This document shows, piece by piece, positions 236 to 38,864 of a stretch of DNA of 38,864 bases. The notes beneath the pieces were generated by a model. It was given only the letters and a program-made list of their open reading frames with translations, was not told the DNA's origin and made no database searches. The DNA comes from ANME-2 cluster archaeon. Lineage in GTDB: Archaea; Halobacteriota; Methanosarcinia; Methanosarcinales; Methanocomedenaceae. The translations under genes were made by a program, and so were the position numbers. The DNA is taken from assembly GCA_019429385.1 (NCBI GenBank), contig JAHYIS010000027.1, forward strand, positions 1 to 38,864, in the 5' to 3' direction. Within the stretch, counting starts at the first letter, position 1; each line of letters opens with the position of its first letter.

Positions 236-732
236 CACAAGGCCTGTAATAAGCCTTAGCCCTTTGATTTCTTATCTTGTCCGGCGATATATTTCTCAAC
301 AACTTCCCATCCATGTCCAACACTTCCATGATAGCAACTTGGTGCCCAGAGACTTTTATCACACCACTCTTTAAGTTCAGGAAATTCCTGCCGCAATATC
401 CTGCTGCTTCTCCCTTTCAACCGCTTGGCAATAAAACTTACGGAATATTTTGGTGGATACTGGATAAAAAGATGAACATGATCGCTACAAACCGATATAT
501 CAATAATCTCGATACCCAGTTCTTTGCAGGTCTTACGTATAATCGCCTCCGCTACCATTGCAACATCCCCTACCAGCACCTTGCCCCTATATTTAGGTGA
601 AAACACCATATGGTCAGTGAGTAAAGATACCGTATGCCTGTCGTGTCTTACCTTCTTTGACATAGAAATTGCAGATGCTGGTTTATTATAAACATTAAAG
701 GCAGGAATGGAATGAAAGTATTTTTCTTTCAA
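236..732 (-). mobile_element. IS200-like element around TnpA (limits approximate)
   Basis: Just beyond and overlapping the tnpA stop codon lies an imperfect hairpin at 239-257 (AAGGC stem, 9-nt loop, GCCTT), where IS200/IS605 right-end hairpins are expected. Upstream of tnpA a second small hairpin at 714-730 (GAAAG, loop, CTTTC) could be the left-end structure. The exact ends are not visible because these elements make no target duplication or terminal inverted repeats. The limits given are the outer edges of the two hairpins, not proven termini. Confidence 0.4.
256..663 (-). CDS. tnpA: IS200/IS605-family Y1 transposase TnpA
   Basis: 135 aa, the usual length for a single-strand HUH transposase of the IS200/IS605 family. 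The start is the ATG at 661-663 (MSKKVRHDRH), because homology-like sequence begins there; the frame stays open upstream without family sequence. The HUH metal-binding pair is H62-V-H64 in DHVHLF, and the catalytic tyrosine is Y125 in VEKYIAGQ. LWAPSCYHGSVG is the conserved segment before the tyrosine helix. The enzyme cuts and joins ssDNA at subterminal hairpins. No tnpB accompanies it, so it is an IS200-type solo element or a remnant. It appears intact. Confidence 0.88.
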   Translation of the reverse strand: MSKKVRHDRHTVSLLTDHMVFSPKYRGKVLVGDVAMVAEAIIRKTCKELGIEIIDISVCSDHVHLFIQYPPKYSVSFIAKRLKGRSSRILRQEFPELKEWCDKSLWAPSCYHGSVGHGWEVVEKYIAGQDKKSKG

Positions 733-857
733 AAGAAATCCTTTATTCTCGACTTCAAGATGACATAATATCCCAATCTTTGCGCCCTTTGCGGTGCCCG
801 AAAAATATCCCCCAGTAAAACATCTTTCATCACCTACTCCCCACCACAAAATCGGCA

Positions 858-870
858 CCTATATATACCA
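858..870 (+). promoter_or_regulatory. TATA box of the aromatic amino acid operon
   Basis: TATATATA at 860-867 in a short AT-rich island. With archaeal spacing the transcript would begin near 890, about 28 nt before the ATG at 918, which is preceded by AAGGTGA at 904-910. Confidence 0.55.
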
Positions 871-917
871 TCCAATCGTGTCAGTGTGTCACACATTAAC
901 ACAGTAAGGTGAACACT

Positions 918-1715
918 ATGTCAGAAATTGGAAAAAGCATACGCATAGAACGGATAATGGACAGACAGAGCAGGAACATGGTAATAATACCCATGGACCA
1001 CGGCATATCAGTAGGCCCGGTCAAAGGACTGGTGGACCTGCCAAAGATGGTCAACAAAGTGGCCGAGGGCGGCGCCGATGCGGTCCTGCTCCAGAAAGGC
1101 ATGTCAAAACACGGGCACCGCGGGTACGGCAGCGATGTGGGGCTTATCATACACATCAGCGCGTCAACGGCACTGGGTCCAGACCCCAATGAAAAGGTCC
1201 TCGTCTGTTCCGTGGAAGAGGCCATCAAACTGGGTGCCGATGCGGTCAGCATCCACATCAATATAGGCAGCGAAACCGAAAGTGACCAGCTGGAACAGAT
1301 GGGCATGATATCAGAGAACTGCGACTTCTGGGGAATGCCCCTGCTGGCGATGATGTACCCCCGTGGCAAGGACATATCCAACTCGAACGACCCTGAACTC
1401 GTGGCACATGCAGCCCGCGCCGGAGCCGAACTGGGCGCCGATGTCGTCAAGACCAACTACACCGGCGACCCCGACACCTTCAGGGATGTCGTACTGGGAT
1501 GTCCCGTGCCCGTGGTCATGGCAGGCGGTCCAAAGACCGAGACCGATGCAGAGTTCCTGGAAATGATACGCGGCTGTATCGATGCAGGCGGTCGTGGCGT
1601 AGCCATAGGCAGAAATGTATTTCAACATCCCGACCCAACAAAGATGACCAGGGCTATTACAAAAATTGTGCATAAGAATGCCAGTGTAGAGGATGCTCTG
1701 GAGGAACTGAAGTGA
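918..1715 (+). CDS. aroA': 2-amino-3,7-dideoxy-D-threo-hept-6-ulosonate (ADH) synthase
   Basis: 265 aa, class I aldolase-fold enzyme of the MJ0400 type. It makes ADH from L-aspartate semialdehyde and a 6-deoxy-5-ketofructose phosphate, the first step of the archaeal route to 3-dehydroquinate that bypasses DAHP synthase. PMDHG (residues 26-30) and the Schiff-base lysine in VVKTNYTGD (K178) are visible, with GxxGRG-type phosphate-binding sequence near the C terminus ([10 protein letters not shown]). The ATG at 918 is chosen because AAGGTGA ends 7 nt upstream; the GTG at 909 lies inside that site. It overlaps the next gene by GTGA. Fructose-bisphosphate aldolase is the alternative reading, but the adjacent dehydroquinate synthase II makes ADH synthase far more likely. 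Confidence 0.9.
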
Positions 1716-2854
1716 AGAAGAAGAGTTTATGGATAAAAGCAGATGCCGGGGATTGGGACGAACGCAAACTCCGCATCACCACCGGTCTTGAATCAGGAGC
1801 CGATTTCGTACTGGTCAACGAGGATGATACTGCCAAGGTACGGGAACTGGGCACCATCAAAGTGGCAGCCTTTGTCAGGGATGGCAAAAGCAAAGCTGAT
1901 GTCTTTGTGGTAGGCAAACACAGCGAAGGTGACGGTACAAATCCGCTGCCCAGTGATTTTTCAGGGAGCAGGGATATCAACCAGGCCCTCCAGCTCAAGG
2001 ACAAAGGGAAAAAGACAGCCGGGTACGTGGTCATCAAGAACAAAAAGTATGAAGAGTTCGCTGCCGAGCTGGGCAGGGTGTGCGATTATGTCATCGTGGT
2101 AGGCACGGACTGGAAGGTCATCCCGCTCGAGAACCTCATTGCAGGTCTCCAGGAAATGGATGTGGATATCATTGCAGGGGTCAGGAATGCAGAGGAGACC
2201 AGGCTCACGCTCGAAACCATGGAACACGGCTCAGAGGGCGTGCTGCTGGATACCGATGATGTATCAGAGATCAAGAGGGTCGTCAAGGCTGTTGAAAAGA
2301 CAGGACTTGAAGAAACGAAATTGAACACCGCCATCATTACCAGGGTCAAGCAGGTAGGTATGGGGGACAGGGTATGCGTGGATACCTGCTCACTGATGAG
2401 CGTGGGCGAGGGCATGCTGGTAGGCAGCCAGTCCAACGGCCTGTTCCTGGTACATTCGGAATCAGAGGACAGCCCCTACGTGGCAGCCAGGCCATTCCGC
2501 GTGAACGCTGGCGCGGTACATGCCTATGTCAAGATAGGCGAAAAGACCCAGTACCTCTCTGAACTGGGTGCCGGTGATGAAGTGCTTGTCGTCAATTCAA
2601 AAGGCGAGCAGCGGCCTGCCATTGTCGGACGCATCAAGATCGAGAAGCGGCCCATGGTACTGGTGGAAGCAAAAGTAGGCGATGCAACCATCAAGACCAT
2701 ACTCCAGAATGCCGAGACCATCAAACTGGTCGGCAAGGACGGCAAACCCATATCTGTCGCCGTACTCAAAGAAGGCGATGAAGTGCTGGCATATTTTGAG
2801 GACACTGCCCGGCATTTCGGCATGAAGGTAGATGAGACCATTATCGAGAAATAA
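1712..2854 (+). CDS. aroB': 3-dehydroquinate synthase II
   Basis: 380 aa, full length for the archaeal MJ1249 family. It oxidatively deaminates and cyclises ADH to 3-dehydroquinate with NAD. The N terminus [17 protein letters not shown] is typical, as are [20 protein letters not shown] and the later [10 protein letters not shown]. It starts with GTG at 1712, overlapping the aroA' stop as GTGA, so the two are translationally coupled. No signal peptide or membrane segment; cytoplasmic. Together with the preceding gene it supplies the only dehydroquinate source visible here. Confidence 0.92.
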
Positions 2855-3567: not shown

Positions 3568-4391
3568 AAACCTTATATGCAGTATTTGGCGACCCTGTAG
3601 GGCACAGCCTGTCCCCGGTCATGCACAATGCTGCCTTTGCGGCACTGGGCATGGACTGCGAGTATCACAAGTTCAGGGTCACGAAAGATGACCTCAAAGA
3701 CGCGATCCATGGTGCAAAGGCCATGGGTTTTGGCGGGTTGAACCTGACCATACCCCTGAAGGAAAGAGCCCTCAGGCTGGTTGAGCCCGACCCCCTGGCA
3801 GAGGCTGTGGGTGCAGTGAATACTATCGAATTCAGGGGAAACGGTCTGGTGGGTCACAATACTGACGGGATAGGTGCATTGAATGCCTTGAAATCTGCAG
3901 GAATTGTAATCCCCCATAGTATTGTGCTGATCCTGGGTGCAGGAGGAGCTGCCAGGGCTGTGGCGTACCAGCTCGCCTCGCACGGCGCCCGGGTAACCAT
4001 CGCCAACAGGACAGCGAAGAGGGCGGTGGAGCTGGCAGAAAATGTCAGTTCGGTGGGACGGGCTGAAGGTACCGGTCTGGAAGACCTGCCAGGGCTGGTG
4101 GAACAATCACATATCATCATCAACACCACATCGGTAGGAATGCACCCCGACACAGACCAGACCCTTGTCACAGGAGATATGATGCATGCCGGACATGTGG
4201 TATTCGACCTGGTGTACAGCCCGCTCGAGACCAGGTTGTTGAAAGAAGCTAAAAAAGCCAAAGCTATCACCGTTGACGGTATCAAAATGCTGGTTCTCCA
4301 GGGCGCTGAGAGTTTCAGGATATGGACCGGCATAGAGCCCCCGGCGGATATCATGGAGCGGGCCGTTCGGGACGTGCTTGGAAAACAGTAA
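3564..4391 (+). CDS. aroE: Shikimate dehydrogenase
   Basis: 275 aa. NADP-dependent reduction of 3-dehydroshikimate to shikimate. FGDPVGHSLSPVMHNAAF at residues 8-25 is the substrate-binding signature, NLTIPLK carries the catalytic K66, HNTDG gives D101, and GAGGAARA (125-132) is the Rossmann nucleotide loop followed by NRT. The start overlaps the aroD stop (ATGA). All key residues are present and the length is normal. Confidence 0.94.
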   Translation: MKTLYAVFGDPVGHSLSPVMHNAAFAALGMDCEYHKFRVTKDDLKDAIHGAKAMGFGGLNLTIPLKERALRLVEPDPLAEAVGAVNTIEFRGNGLVGHNTDGIGALNALKSAGIVIPHSIVLILGAGGAARAVAYQLASHGARVTIANRTAKRAVELAENVSSVGRAEGTGLEDLPGLVEQSHIIINTTSVGMHPDTDQTLVTGDMMHAGHVVFDLVYSPLETRLLKEAKKAKAITVDGIKMLVLQGAESFRIWTGIEPPADIMERAVRDVLGKQ

Positions 4392-33047: not shown

Positions 33048-34346
33048 ATGGTCACAATAAAACCCTTCAAAAGCACGATACTGAATCCTGAGCTCCCTGA
33101 CAGGGACCGGCTTGTATGCCCGGTCTATGATACTATTGATGAGACCGAATATGCCCGGTACGGCGTCGAAAGCAATAACGTGATCCATATCACTACACGA
33201 AATAAGAGCATCGGGAGCGAAGAGTTCATTGCCGGGTCCACCGGGAACCTGAAGCGTTTTTTCCGGGATGGGGTGCTTGTGGAGCGTGAGAAGCCCGGGT
33301 TTTATATCTACGGGATACGGTACAGCCTTCCTGAAGATATCCTGGGACAGATACCTGCTGCGGCGAAGCGGGATGTGTATTTTGCGTTCGGGCTGGTTGC
33401 CCTGGTCAGGGTGGAGGGGCTGGGCGAGGGGAGCATTGTGGGGCATGAGCGGATATTTGAGACACATACCGTCGAGCGCTATGACGTGATGAAGGCGTCT
33501 GGCATGAATTTTGCGCCTATTGTGGCCGAGTACAGTATGCCCGGGCATGATATGAACAATATGCTTGAGGAGTACCTGGGATTCAGGCGACCTGACCTTG
33601 TCATAAGGGAGGACAGGCCGCCGCTGGTGGATGTTTCGTTGAAAGGTATCAGGCACCTGCTCTGGGAGATCACTGACCGGGAAATGGTGGGGAAGATACA
33701 GGCAATGATGGCTGATAGAGATCTGCTTATCCTTGACGGGCATCACCGGTACAATGCGGCCAATGAGTTGCGTTTGAGGGATGGCGTGGAATATACCATG
33801 ATGATGTTCATGGAAGGGGGAGACCGCGCGCTGTTGCTGTTACCCTGGCACCGGTGCATAAGGCGGCTGGACAGGGAGATGCTGGATTCGCAGATTGAGC
33901 AGTATTTTGATGTTGTGTGGAAGGGGGCACCGGGTGATGCGTTCTATGGGATGCTGGGTGCCAGGGATGATGCGCTGGATGTCAGGATAGGGATGTATGA
34001 CGGCAGGGATTTTACGGTTCTTAAGGCTCACGGGGATGAGGTGGAACGGTTGTCAGGTTGCCTGGATGAGAAGGTTGGGCTGGATTATATCTCGCTGAAT
34101 GAATGGGTGATAGAACCCCTGGCGAACGGGGATAATGTGGATAATGTCGGGTTTGTGGACAGTGTGGCCGAGGCGGTAAGGAAGGTTGACGAGCAGGGGT
34201 TCATGGTGGCGTTTTTGATGCGGCCGCTGGCTATTGGGGATGTGGAATACAAGGCCTATACCGAGATGAAGAATTTCCCGCAAAAGTCTACTCTTTTTTT
34301 GCCCAAGGTGGCGGAAGGGATTTTGATGCGGCGGTTCAGGGAGTAG
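33048..34346 (+). CDS. DUF1015-family protein
   Basis: 432 aa. MVTIKPFKSTILNPELPDRDRLVCPVYDTI is the usual start (IKPFKSTILNPEL); the diagnostic LLILDGHHRYNAANEL lies at residues about 226-241, and LPWHRCIRRLD follows. Family function is unknown; it has been likened to kinases or HTH-linked proteins without proof. No clear ribosome binding site; a TATA-like ATATAAA at 33024-33030 is only about 20 nt upstream, so the leader must be very short or absent. The G+C-rich codon use in the second half differs a little from neighbours. Confidence 0.85.
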   Translation: MVTIKPFKSTILNPELPDRDRLVCPVYDTIDETEYARYGVESNNVIHITTRNKSIGSEEFIAGSTGNLKRFFRDGVLVEREKPGFYIYGIRYSLPEDILGQIPAAAKRDVYFAFGLVALVRVEGLGEGSIVGHERIFETHTVERYDVMKASGMNFAPIVAEYSMPGHDMNNMLEEYLGFRRPDLVIREDRPPLVDVSLKGIRHLLWEITDREMVGKIQAMMADRDLLILDGHHRYNAANELRLRDGVEYTMMMFMEGGDRALLLLPWHRCIRRLDREMLDSQIEQYFDVVWKGAPGDAFYGMLGARDDALDVRIGMYDGRDFTVLKAHGDEVERLSGCLDEKVGLDYISLNEWVIEPLANGDNVDNVGFVDSVAEAVRKVDEQGFMVAFLMRPLAIGDVEYKAYTEMKNFPQKSTLFLPKVAEGILMRRFRE

Positions 34347-34528
34347 GGGTTGCTGGTATCAGAGACCGGTAATCTTATCGGGAAAATATGATGGATGAGC
34401 TAATAGTATCTTTCTCATGAGCTCATAATGGCCGTACATTGAAAACTGGGTTTGGGTGAAAGAGAGGTAAAAACTCTTGCCCTGATGACTGATTCTTTTC
34501 TGTTAATAACGATAAGGAGGTATCGACC

Positions 34529-34709
34529 ATCGCAGAGTTACCTGGTGGTAAAACAAAGGGTGTCCTGTACATTCTACTAAAAAGCAGTGAAACTCCACCT
34601 GCCAGGGAAAGGGGGAGCATGTGGGATATTCCGGCAGATGCTCGAGGATGGGGTCCTGATTGCTCCTGATGTGGCGGTTGAATTTGAAACGATGTTATTC
34701 CAATTGTGA
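34529..34709 (+). pseudogene. Broken small protein gene, ATC start and G-run frameshift
   Basis: AAGGAGG (34514-34520) is followed, 8 nt later, by ATC-GCA-GAG instead of ATG. The frame reads AELPGGKTKGVLYILLKSSE then TPPARERG. Removing one G from GGGGG at 34611-34615 joins it to ACGIFRQMLEDGVLIAPDVA and VEFETMLFQL, ending at TGA 34707-34709, about 59 aa. Both pieces look protein-like, so this is an old or recently damaged gene, or two base errors. Family not recognised. The flanks (34347-34513 and 34710-34880) show nothing further. Confidence 0.5.
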
Positions 34710-34880
34710 AGATTTTTTTATGAGTCTCTGCTCTTATATGCTATGTATTAAACTCGTGTTCTTCACGGTTCAATATGCCTGTTGAAAAAATATTGTTCTC
34801 ATAATTCGATTTTGCGCTATTTTTTTTCACATATTGCACCCGGTCGCAAAAAATACTCCTGCCGATTCCGATAAAAGATA

Positions 34881-34892
34881 AGTTTATATACC
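34881..34892 (+). promoter_or_regulatory. TATA box of the DUF5371-pilin operon
   Basis: TTTATATA at 34883-34890 within AAGTTTATATACC, a near-consensus archaeal box. The transcript should begin near 34912, giving an 80-nt leader before ATG 34996. Confidence 0.55.
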
Positions 34893-34995
34893 TCATACTT
34901 ATAATGATGATTTATGAGACGTTGATACTTTGAATATAAAATCAATACCAAAATTTTATAATTCAGTGTGTCAATATCCACAGCAAGGTGAAACT

Positions 34996-35193
34996 ATGTC
35001 TAAGATTATGCACGCTCAGATGGTCATTATAGAAGATGACCTGAATGCCCTCAAAGAAAAAACGGGTGAAAAGAATACCAAGGACGCTCTCGCCAAAGCT
35101 GTGGCCCATTATCTGGAATGCGAATACACGCAGGCAACTGATATGTGGGAAAAGAAGCTCGAAAAACGAATATTAGCTAAAAAACAAAAATAA
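34996..35193 (+). CDS. Small DUF5371-like protein, possible ribbon-helix-helix regulator
   Basis: 65 aa. ATG 34996 is chosen since AAGGTGA ends 6 nt upstream; the frame also opens at a TTG 66 nt earlier. The pattern HAQMVIIEDDLNALKEKTGE then TKDALAKAVAHYLECE (beta strand, then two helices) resembles ribbon-helix-helix DNA-binding proteins and the methanogen family DUF5371. The tail is strongly basic (KKLEKRILAKKQK). It is 15 nt before the first pilin gene and likely cotranscribed, so it could regulate pilin expression (inference). Confidence 0.7.
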   Translation: MSKIMHAQMVIIEDDLNALKEKTGEKNTKDALAKAVAHYLECEYTQATDMWEKKLEKRILAKKQK

Positions 35194-35208
35194 GGAGAGA
35201 AGAGAAAT

Positions 35209-35667
35209 ATGAAAGCAAATAGAAAATTCACACGCGACGAAGATGCAGTATCTCCGGTCATCGGTGTTATCCTGATGGTCGCCATCACTGTCATCCTGGC
35301 TGCAGTCATTGCAGCGTTCGTGTTCGGTATGGGTAGTTCCCTGTCCAAGCAGTATGTGGTTGCGGCAACAGTGTCACAGATCTCAAGCGAGAAGATTGAT
35401 GTTACATATGCTGGTGGTCCTGATGCTGACGCATTGGATTATATAAATATTACAATAACGTCATCAGACGGTAATGTATATGATTATGATAAAGATGCAA
35501 ATTTCACAATTGCAACCAAACCTGGTAATAACAATCCAACCGTAGGGACTTCAATAAGTGTAAAAGCTGCTGCAAATTCAAATGATTTCTCCGAAAGAGA
35601 TCATGTAGTGCTTACTGCAACATTCCTTGACGGTTCAAAACAGGTAATTCTGGATACCTACATCTAA
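35209..35667 (+). CDS. Type IV pilin, archaeal class III signal
   Basis: 152 aa. N-terminal [20 protein letters not shown] then [15 protein letters not shown] is the pilin signal and assembly helix (DUF1628/pilin N-terminal family); prepilin peptidase would cut shortly before AVSPVIG. The beta-rich C-terminal head ends DHVVLTATFLDGSKQVILDTYI (DGSKQVILDTYI). AAGGAGAGAAG precedes the ATG. Forms surface filaments for adhesion or contact. It is paralogous to the next pilin, with an almost identical helix but a diverged head. Confidence 0.9.
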   Translation: MKANRKFTRDEDAVSPVIGVILMVAITVILAAVIAAFVFGMGSSLSKQYVVAATVSQISSEKIDVTYAGGPDADALDYINITITSSDGNVYDYDKDANFTIATKPGNNNPTVGTSISVKAAANSNDFSERDHVVLTATFLDGSKQVILDTYI

Positions 35668-35782
35668 ATACACATTTGAAATGTGATACTTCGGTATCAC
35701 ATTCTTTTCTTTTATTAAGAGACAAATCGGTTACACGGCAAAATATCATCTTTATGCGGGATATAAAAAAACCTGGCGAATC

Positions 35783-36220
35783 ATGAAAAACGTTAAAACA
35801 ATATCAGAAAACAATGACGCAGTATCCCCGGTCATTGGTGTTATCCTGATGGTTGCCATCACTGTTATCCTGGCTGCGGTCATTGCTGCATACGTGTTCG
35901 GCGTGGGCGGCGGTGTTCAGAAGCAGTACATGGTGGGAGCCGTTATATCGCAGGTAAGCCCCAGCCAGATAGATGTTACCTACCTGGGAGGCGGAGATGC
36001 CGATTCCGTGGATTTTATTACGGTAAGGGTAACCACAGCAGATGGTGTTGTTGTTAATAGTTATTTCAACGACAAAAACAGCAGTAACGGTATAGCTGAC
36101 ATTTTACCCGGTACCGCGTCCATCGTCAGCAGTAACAATTTTACCTATATTGACCACGTCATAGTCACTGCCACATTCCTCGACGGCAACCAGCAGGTCA
36201 TCATGGAACGGTACGTCTGA
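35783..36220 (+). CDS. Type IV pilin, second paralogue
   Basis: 145 aa. [20 protein letters not shown] and [16 protein letters not shown] form the same processed helix as the first pilin; the head shares [15 protein letters not shown] (first pilin DVTYAGGPDADALDY) and the end [19 protein letters not shown]. No ribosome binding site is visible (CCTGGCGAATC before ATG). An ATATAAAA at 35761-35768 is nearer than usual for a TATA box, so a leaderless transcript or readthrough from the first pilin are both possible. Confidence 0.9.
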
Positions 36221-36471
36221 CATTCCTCTGCATGCTCTGGATTACCTAACCTGGCGTGTGCAATCTTTTTCTTCTAACCTGACAACTTTTGCAGGTTTAT
36301 ATCGAACCGGCACAAACACCACCTCCGCCCCCCTCGCCTATCCCCTATCCCACGCCCGGACGCATGAGCACACGATTGCGTACAAGAGTATCAATGTCGG
36401 GCCGCCGGATACGTGCGACAGGGGCAGCGGGAGGAAGGAGAACGGCGGGCGGTTAGGGGGTGCGCTGGATG

Positions 36472-36682
36472 TTGTGCGTGGAGTGGCCTCAACGGCTGTT
36501 AAAATATAATTTTATTTAAATAATGCGCCGCAAAGCACGCAAAGTTAATGCAGCTACGGCTTTGCGGTGAATTAGATGAACGAGAAAAACTTTGGATGGC
36601 AAGAACTTCCCATTTACCTTTTCACCGGAACAAACCTGGACGACCCTGACCCCGACAATCTGCCTGATATTGAACCTGGCAG
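36472..36682 (+). repeat. Direct repeat R1 (copy of 38637-38864)
   Basis: Begins TTGTGCGTGGAGTGGCC, runs through CTGTTAAAATATAATTTTAT and the CGCAAAG palindrome, and ends in the coding-like piece reading IYLFTGTNLDDP then DNLPDIEP. The second copy at the window end is highly similar. R1 lacks 18 nt present in R2, bounded by CTTTGCGG on both sides, as expected of a deletion between short repeats. Confidence 0.85.
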
Positions 36683-36713
36683 CCAGCAGGTCATCATGGA
36701 CGTCCGCGTGTGA
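36576..36713 (+). pseudogene. Pilin 3'-end remnant, 45-codon reading frame
   Basis: ATG 36576 opens MNEKNFGWQELPIYLFTGTN, then LDDPDPDNLPDIEPGSQQVI and MDVRV. The end GSQQVIMDVRV resembles the end of the second pilin ([11 protein letters not shown]), and the 65 nt after the stop also resemble those after the second pilin (TGACA, GCATGC, GTGTGC, TTTTTCTT in order). No signal helix is left. So a third pilin copy seems to have lost its 5' part to a repeat insertion. Confidence 0.45.
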
Positions 36714-37461
36714 CACTTCTATGCATGCCAGGGCTCCCTTCGCCCGGGTGTGTGCCATATTTTTCTTTTGAACAAGCTGTTTCAGGGGTCTATTGGATCG
36801 ATAATAACAGCCCCACCTTTCTCCACTCCCCTGCGCTGTCCCTGCTGCTGCTGACCTGGTGTGGACGGTTGTATTATTTTGTAGTGCGTGGAGTGGCGCC
36901 ACGGCTGTTGAAATATATAATTAGTACAATTTAAACCAGGAAAGAACACACATCCAGAGGACCATGCTCCTTTGCAATGAATAAAATAATGAACCCCCCC
37001 TCAGCCCTTACGTTGCTGAGTCGGGTTTGGGTGCTGCTATACAATAACAACCATTTAAACAACTGACCCTGACACCGCAGCCCGCAAGGGCGGTATGGTG
37101 GCAGCCAGCCTTGTTGCTTTAATTGAACCGCAGAGTACGCGGAGTGAGCAGAGCGTTTTTACTTTTCTCTGCGCACCTCAGCGGTTCGCATTGACCTGCT
37201 CTCCCGCCCCCCCACCGCACTGGTGACTGTGCTGGGGTGTGTATACACATGAAAGAGTAATGTAAATTCAACCTACTGCTTCACCTGGCTCTGTACCTGA
37301 TAAGTTCCACGAACAGCGACGTCAGAAGATCCGTTATGCCACGCGACTATTTGAAGCTATCTTTTTCAACAGGGATGTGCTACTAAATGCAACATGTGAT
37401 AAGAAAAGCTTATTAGTGAATGGTTCGAAATACTGAGTACGCAAGTGAAGAGGTAACAATC
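36714..37461. other. Repeat-rich non-coding stretch
   Basis: No convincing gene in either strand. It holds a partial third copy of the repeat start at 36883-36936 (GTGCGTGGAGTGGCGCCACG, then AATATATAATT), a dyad CTCAGC/GCTGAG at 37000-37020, and a palindromic element at 37128-37184 (CCGCAGAG ... CTCTGC ... GCGG) like dispersed CGCAGAG repeats of many environmental genomes. Short ORFs here have repetitive or low-complexity translations. The segment ends with the promoter region of the toxin-antitoxin pair. The stretch 36221-36471 after the second pilin also holds no gene. Confidence 0.6.
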
Positions 37462-37767
37462 ATGAGCAGTGCTACATCTATAATTACATCCAGTGGTGCA
37501 GATGCGTTGGTCCGGGGAGGGGTATATTCAACAAAAAATGAACTTTTAGATGATGCTTTAAGAACCTTTTTTGAGTTCAGGAAGGATATGCGGATAACAG
37601 CTGTGGTAGAGATGTATAAGGCAGATGAGATATCCATCTCAAAAGCTGCTGAATTGGCAGGGGTCAGTACAGAGGAAATAAAGGATTTTCTGGCAAAGGC
37701 AGGTGTAAAGATAAGAAGGGGTTTTTCCCGGAATAAGGGAAGTGAATTAGCAGAGCTAGTACGATGA
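37462..37767 (+). CDS. UPF0175-family antitoxin
   Basis: 101 aa from ATG 37462, 8 nt after GAAGAGGT; an ATG at 37420 in frame is an alternative. The N-terminal half (GVYSTKNELLDDALRTFFEF) resembles a ribbon-helix-helix-like segment, and ISISKAAELAGVSTEEIKDFLAKAGV is the UPF0175 helix-turn-helix. Its stop overlaps the PIN gene start (ATGA). Binds and neutralises the PIN toxin and probably represses the operon, as in other antitoxins. Confidence 0.82.
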   Translation: MSSATSIITSSGADALVRGGVYSTKNELLDDALRTFFEFRKDMRITAVVEMYKADEISISKAAELAGVSTEEIKDFLAKAGVKIRRGFSRNKGSELAELVR

Positions 37768-38294
37768 TACTCATCGACACCTGCATTTTAAGTTCACTGG
37801 CTAAGATCGATAGATTATGTTTGCTGGATATATTATTCAGGAAGCATTTCTGTTATATCACACCATCTATATTGAGGGAATTGGACACAAACAAGATTGC
37901 AGGATTCAAATTTGTTGATAAGATCGGGAAAATGCTTAGTTTTACGGATGTAAAGAACAAAATCTGTATAATATCACCGGATGCAGAAGAATTTGAACAA
38001 GCATATGGACTTCAGGATAAGTATAACCTGAGTCTTGTGGACTGCGAATGTATTGTTCTGGCAAAGTCTAAAGATGCTATTTTGTTGACAGACGACACGA
38101 AGCTTGGGAAATCGGCACTCAAAGAAGGTATCTCCAAAGTATATGATTTGAAGAGCCTGCTGGTGGCAAACATCATAGAAGAGGTTATAATTGTGCGAGA
38201 AGAACTTGAAGAGATTCTTGATTGTTTGAGACGAAAAGACTACTATTCATTTTCTGAAAGTGATATAGAGGAGATTTTCAAATATATATCGTGA
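37764..38294 (+). CDS. PIN-domain toxin (DUF3368/VapC-like RNase)
   Basis: 176 aa. The Mg-binding acidic residues of PIN nucleases are in place: D5 (LIDTCILSSL), E39 (LRELD), D93 (LVDCECIVLA) and D110/D111 (LLTDDTKLG). PIN toxins cut RNA, often tRNA or rRNA. UPF0175 plus DUF3368-type PIN is a known antitoxin-toxin pairing. The C-terminal extension (EEVIIVREELEEILDCLRRKDY) is probably the antitoxin-binding part. Intact. Confidence 0.85.
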   Translation: MILIDTCILSSLAKIDRLCLLDILFRKHFCYITPSILRELDTNKIAGFKFVDKIGKMLSFTDVKNKICIISPDAEEFEQAYGLQDKYNLSLVDCECIVLAKSKDAILLTDDTKLGKSALKEGISKVYDLKSLLVANIIEEVIIVREELEEILDCLRRKDYYSFSESDIEEIFKYIS

Positions 38295-38636
38295 TTGTAA
38301 CTATAATCGAATAAGTATACGCTCATCCCTTTCGTTAATCTAAATCGTTATACCCCGCAGCACTGCTGCGGTTGGGTGTGCCGTCGCAACATTTGACTTA
38401 AGTAATGTATGCAACATCTAATCCGTGTAAATCTGTGTCTAAAAAATAATGAAACCCAGCCCCCATCTATTCTATGGTTCTGCTACCGCCCCTTCTGGTT
38501 CACTTATATATGGTGCCCGTCCCGGTCTGCTCCGCCCTTCCCTTGTGGTGTGGGGTGCTGGAAGGTGCTTTTCCATTTTTCTATCAGGCATTGGGTGTTT
38601 CTTGTTGGGTGGTAGTGATGGGTAGTTATATTCAGT
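38295..38636. other. Non-coding stretch after the toxin gene
   Basis: No supported gene. A hairpin CCGCAG-CACTG-CTGCGG lies at 38355-38371 and could end the toxin-antitoxin transcript, though no T-run follows. Positions 38440-38470 (AATAATGAAACCCAGCCC) resemble 36983-37006, suggesting that the two flanks of the toxin-antitoxin pair derive from one duplicated unit. Confidence 0.45.
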
Positions 38637-38864
38637 TGTTGGTGGTGGAGTGCCTCCATGGCTGTTAAAATATAATTTTATTTAAATAATGTGCCGCAAA
38701 GCACGCAAAGTTAATGCAGCAACGCCTTTGCGGTCTTTGCGTACTTTGCGGTGAATTGAATGAACGAAAAAAAACTTTAAATGGCAAGGACTTTCCATTT
38801 ACCTTTTCAACGGAACTAACCTGGACGACCCTGAATCCGATAATCTGCCTGATATTGAACCCAG
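38637..38864 (+). repeat. Direct repeat R2, cut by window end
   Basis: Second copy of R1, with the full palindrome. The coding-like end reads LSIYLFNGTNLDDP then ESDNLPDIEP in the frame matching R1, but the preceding frame is broken by TAA after MNEKKL. The copy continues beyond the window. Confidence 0.85.
38692..38752. repeat. CGCAAAG palindrome within R2
   Basis: CCGCAAAGCACGCAAAG at 38693-38709 and CTTTGCGTACTTTGCGG at 38735-38751 form a long hairpin with one mismatch around a 25-nt centre. It is the type of dispersed REP-like palindrome common in environmental archaeal and bacterial genomes. Confidence 0.7.

Follow-up and report, generated by a model that had tools for sequence, protein, structure and literature searches.

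What are the two repeats, R1 and R2, that lie downstream of a pair of tandem pilin genes in a methane-eating archaeon, whose group lives alongside bacterial partners? The original prediction was that R1 and R2 carry a conserved peptide frame ending like a pilin, and that 3' parts of pilin genes are stored there as cassettes, perhaps as donors for gene conversion of pilin heads. The stretch of DNA analyzed (the window, 38,864 nt) is the whole of contig C27 of an ANME-2 cluster archaeon genome (G000; 2.40 Mb in 70 contigs). A further 184 genomes of the same order were searched (185 with its own), and one genome per species was compared. Features of the locus are collected in Table 1.

Table 1. 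Pilin genes, pilin fragments and repeat modules in the window.
Feature	Coordinates	Strand	Description
Pilin 1	35209..35667	+	Intact archaeal type IV pilin; PF07790, 64.7 bits
Pilin 2	35783..36220	+	Intact; PF07790, 55.7 bits; closest intact relative of the fragments in its own genome
Pilin 2 flank	36221..36375	+	Non-coding; 146 of 155 sites agree with the flank of the C52 fragment
Module A in R1	36486..36568	+	Dispersed repeat forming the 5' part of R1; 94% identical to 38652-38734
R1	36576..36713	+	45-codon open frame; homologous to pilins from about 36595 on; lacks 75 nt present in C52, near 36678
R1 flank	36714..36810	+	Also present in the G001 and G002 short-form copies; 25 of 94 columns variable across four copies
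Module A of R2	38652..38765	+	Carries the hairpin CCGCAAAG...CTTTGCGG
R2	38776..38864	+	Pilin 3' fragment ended by the contig end; goes on as C52:2653-2761

Origin of the shared frame

The likeness of R1 and R2 was far beyond chance: about 36470-36676 and about 38637-38861 were 82% identical over 226 aligned positions (E 2e-63), and within them 36585-36676 and 38770-38861 showed 90% identity over 92 nt. R1 holds exactly one frame from ATG to stop, MNEKNFGWQELPIYLFTGTNLDDPDPDNLPDIEPGSQQVIMDVRV. These matches bore out the common frame, with some corrections. The pilin frame is common to R1 and R2 from TTTAAATGG onward; the shared upstream part is not pilin sequence, and in R2 the ATG is out of frame and opens only MNEKKL before a stop (six codons).

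R2 was followed beyond the end of the window on a second contig of the same genome, C52, which it matched at 100% over 89 nt. The last 127 nt of the window (38738-38864) are identical to C52:2526-2652; an exact contig-end overlap of this length is what an assembler run with k = 127 would leave at a fork. Because this stretch is identical, R2 and C52 were counted as one copy. On C52 another 36 codons follow in frame and form a clear pilin 3' end (...SSTSIFSSNNFTYNDHVTVIATFPDGSQQVIMEVRV-stop), and the pilin frame is open across 65 codons. The 65-residue product was 69% identical to the intact pilin 2 of a congener, G007, over 52 residues and 63% identical to pilin 2 of its own genome over 46 residues, and it is because of these matches that the shared frame of R1 and R2 is identified as the pilin frame.

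R1 is the C52-type tail minus 75 nt, lost between GCAGC-type repeats, and its pilin homology fades upstream of GATGGC. Each of R1 and R2 thus corresponds to the final third of a pilin gene, attached to dispersed intergenic repeats and devoid of both signal peptide and N-terminal helix. That both are 3' parts of a pilin gene, lying beside the tandem pair, is shown by the way the frame continues on C52 and by the intact pilin 2 of G007. The ending of R1 resembles that of pilin 2, as proposed (40 of 51 nt agree), and the likeness after the stop was genuine but modest, with 74% identity over 91 aligned positions including the coding tail.

Pfam returned no family for the R1 frame or the C52 fragment, and hence no Pilin_N (PF07790) match, while pilins 1 and 2 exceed the cut-off of 25.2 bits. 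Compared with archaeal type IV pilins of this family, the fragment matches, in frame, the 3' end of pilin 2 (own genome and G007) but has neither signal peptide, N-terminal helix nor Pilin_N match, and R1 is shorter by another 25 codons. As in a pseudogene fragment, the homology is to part of an intact gene.

Intergenic repeats around the fragments

The stretches 36486-36568 and 38652-38734 contain the core of module A and not pilin sequence. The 17-nt core is present 25 times in the genome with no more than one mismatch (none for the reversed control), and by its many genome-wide copies module A is a dispersed intergenic repeat. Its hairpin in the R2 copy folds with a z of -4.5, none of 200 shuffles being as good. 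Repeats of this kind, dispersed intergenic hairpins, are known as REP- or MITE-like. Module A resembles them in its many copies and its hairpin, and it forms the 5' part of both R1 and R2; the pilin part differs in being gene-derived and in having at least five copies, in three genomes of one genus (at most the four best candidates scored per genome).

R1 is flanked by two module A cores 409 nt apart. Other close pairs in the genome are 287-622 nt apart, and further neighboring cores 911-3385 nt. The intervals read between other cores carry other repeats. Pilin sequence was absent from the regions read around the close cores on C8, C19 and C47, and from the short stretches read at the cores of C3, C30, C10, C53 and C15. 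A second dispersed module occurs on C52 at 2864-2981 and 4162-4278 (93% identical), and part of it also follows pilin 2 at 36323-36375; the end of the pilin 2 flank, from 36323, is found again at C52:4162-4214 with 98% identity.

Several other elements were observed. A group II intron with reverse transcriptase and maturase domains lies on C52 (L017) at 322-2525, minus strand, and in L074 from 1 to about 717; the genome holds one full and two partial copies. Its insertion point, CTT/TGCG, lies in the hairpin repeat and coincides exactly with the edge of the R2/C52 fragment; in G001, too, intron sequence adjoins the fragment. C15 and C27 look like intron-empty sites. C52 joins a C15-type left side to a C27-type right side, which may reflect strain variation or a chimeric contig. 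On the minus strand at 256-858 there is a gene for an IS200-like Y1 transposase (PF01797), and adjacent UPF0175 and PIN-domain genes, likely a toxin-antitoxin pair, lie between R1 and R2 at 37420-38294. A structured RNA was rejected, Rfam giving no match in 34300-38864 up to E 1, as was a viral origin of the fragment, its pattern having no match in viral contigs.

Copies, reading frames and selection

DNA and protein searches of the 2.4-Mb genome found R1 and R2/C52 as the only fragments, so that the additional 3' cassettes expected elsewhere in the genome did not appear. Across the order the fragment was found in at least three of 185 genomes, all of one genus (the best four candidates or fewer were scored per genome, and weak copies may be missed). 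The fragment recurs in two congeners, the ANME-2 cluster archaea HMMV-459A3 and MAG_011, of which the former is placed in ANME-2a, "Ca. Methanocomedens", in a table of PMC9012536; the window thus very likely belongs to that genus as well. G007 was picked up in the order-wide search by its intact pilin 2. DNA matches of 27-29 nt in G116 and G156, antisense to other open frames, were taken as chance.

In two other ANME-2a genomes the short form was found as well, once in G001 (C38) and twice in G002 (C126 and C190), the latter in different settings; these copies share with R1 both the loss of 75 nt and a 32-nt junction that is identical throughout. Read from the ATG, the frame is interrupted in three of the five copies: R2/C52, G001 and C126 of G002. 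In the last two it is shifted at the deletion point inside the pilin part, and their endings differ. In each of the four short-form copies the reading frame stays open from the ATG to DIE inclusive, and two of them, R1 and C190 of G002, run on to a common stop.

Thirteen changes from the consensus were counted over 26 codons in the five copies, 5 of them synonymous and 8 not. Random changes with the same transitions and transversions, with the codons adjoining the deletion left out, gave a mean of 3.9 synonymous (P 0.34), which is no departure from neutrality in a test of low power. Variable columns numbered 6, 5 and 7 at codon positions 1, 2 and 3. Pairwise dN/dS was 0.13-0.66, below 1 in all 10 pairs (28 codons; the pairs are not independent). 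Values near 1, along with an absence of further cassettes, had been named as signs against the original reading, and here the outcome is mixed: no more cassettes appeared and the pairwise values are not near 1, but the change count fits neutrality. Among the four short-form copies, from three species, variable columns numbered 10 of 68 in the body, 5 of 36 in the tail and one in the first 48 nt, within which GGTGA precedes the ATG. Set against the 25 of 94 in the flank, that single column suggests that the start may be under constraint.

Recombination at the pilin locus and competing explanations

An intact pilin 2-type gene was found in two of the eight genomes of the genus (G000 and G007), several of the others being incomplete, and no pilin 2 followed pilin 1 in the stretches examined in G001 and G003. 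The gene order in G007 is pilin 1, pilin 2, degP. In G001 the fragment lies about 600 nt ahead of a degP that matches residues 173-294 of 324 only, which points to the pilin locus as the fragment's place of origin. As a marker of the position of R1 itself, degP was rejected because in G000 the gene starts at C6:289 beside other sequence. A DUF5371 gene (34996-35193) lies directly ahead of pilin 1, as it does in G007.

Between pilin 2 and C52, 97 of 125 coding sites are identical (78%), as are 94% of flank sites (Fisher P 6e-5). The best mosaic break falls near 36228, just 3' of the stop (maximum chi-square; no equally strong break in 2000 permutations). Up to the break C52 resembles R1 (50 of 51 sites), and just past the stop, in non-coding DNA, it turns from the R-type to the pilin 2-type flank. 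A fragment has thus undergone recombination with the pilin 2 region, but the tract concerned is non-coding. In the pilin 2 coding sequence of this one assembly no tract was identical to a cassette.

In pilin 1, dS between G000 and G007 was 0.16 for the first 45 codons and rose to 0.90, 1.93 and 2.81 over the three segments that follow, against a background of 0.54 for DUF5371 and 0.59 for degP. The first segment was more alike than this background allows (P 0.001) and the last two were more different (P 0.007 and 0.004), for segments chosen by the analyst, with P values uncorrected and the high dS near saturation. The low 5' dS was less sharp in other pilin 1 pairs, there was hardly any jump between G001 and G003 (0.43, 0.49, 0.74, 0.60), and pilin 2 showed none (0.89, 0.93, 0.57, 1.70). 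The jump in pilin 1 could reflect head replacement; no fragment was visible as donor for its heads.

The proposal that R1 and R2 silently store 3' pilin sequence for copying into an expressed pilin draws on the absence of a 5' part, the position beside pilin genes, the exchange of DNA between C52 and the pilin 2 region, and a divergence of pilin 1 that looks as though its head had been exchanged. In the antigenic variation system pilE/pilS of Neisseria, truncated pilin copies that lack a 5' end are found close to expressed pilin genes, and a G-quadruplex motif lies upstream of the expressed gene. The fragments resemble that system, as it is generally described rather than by sequence comparison, in lacking a 5' end near pilin genes, but they differ from it on several counts. 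There are two fragment loci in the genome and not several distinct cassettes, R1 has lost 75 nt of the head, the frames are broken in most copies, and the coding match to pilin 2 is below that of the adjacent non-coding flank, with no identical tract in an expressed head. Nor does any G-quadruplex motif occur in 34900-38864; the single one in the window, at 33409-33431, precedes pilin 1 by about 1.8 kb. The part of the literature covered yielded no report of a silent-pilin system in archaea. A donor store is very improbable, and the original interpretation as a whole is partly supported.

Two further readings fare little differently. The short form might be a new peptide gene made from a pilin head and starting at the ATG at 36576, for which its little-varied front, the frames open through DIE, the stop shared by R1 and C190 and the dN/dS values all speak; it is nevertheless most unlikely, given the shifted frames and different ends in G001 and C126, the stop six codons after the ATG of R2/C52, a change count consistent with neutrality and the lack of a family match. 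The fragment might instead be a passenger of a mobile intergenic element made up of the hairpin module and its neighbors. The spacing of the cores around R1 falls in the range of close pairs elsewhere, the module has a strong hairpin, the G002 copies occupy different settings, and the window has a Y1 transposase gene; however, a link of that gene to the repeats would be conjecture, other neighboring cores are much farther apart, the other intervals read hold other repeats in place of a pilin fragment, and the case comes without a target-site duplication or a filled/empty pair for the fragment, so that we consider it improbable. Equally doubtful, and little to be expected, is a composite in which the short form is a new gene for a 45-residue peptide spread with the repeats in ANME-2a, the repeats favor exchange around the pilin genes, and recombination substitutes one pilin head for another.

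R1 and R2 are probably decaying relics of the last third of a pilin 2-type gene, shuffled with intergenic repeats, rather than a working store. A pilin copy would have lost its 5' two thirds on meeting the dispersed hairpin repeat, and one descendant, the short form, would then have had 75 nt deleted between short direct repeats of GCAGC type. The relics may have been copied within and between loci along with neighboring repeat modules, probably by ordinary homologous recombination across these modules, and would now be drifting. In favor of this account stand the observed homology to the pilin 3' end, the common deletion and 5' junction, the frames interrupted in some copies and the mosaic flank. 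Against decay stand the 65 open codons of C52, the open frames of R1 and C190, dN/dS below 1 and the little-varied first 48 nt; the fragment nonetheless appears not to work as a gene. Ordinary gene debris is the most likely verdict. Two loose ends are left: the start of the short form, which is conserved, and the jump in divergence within pilin 1.

The nature of the shared frame is settled by these results, and an appealing claim of pilin antigenic variation in archaea, which lacks support, is removed. What the locus presents is intergenic repeats reshuffling a gene end beside an archaeal pilin locus, and the jump in synonymous divergence within pilin 1 offers a lead of its own on the diversification of such surface proteins.
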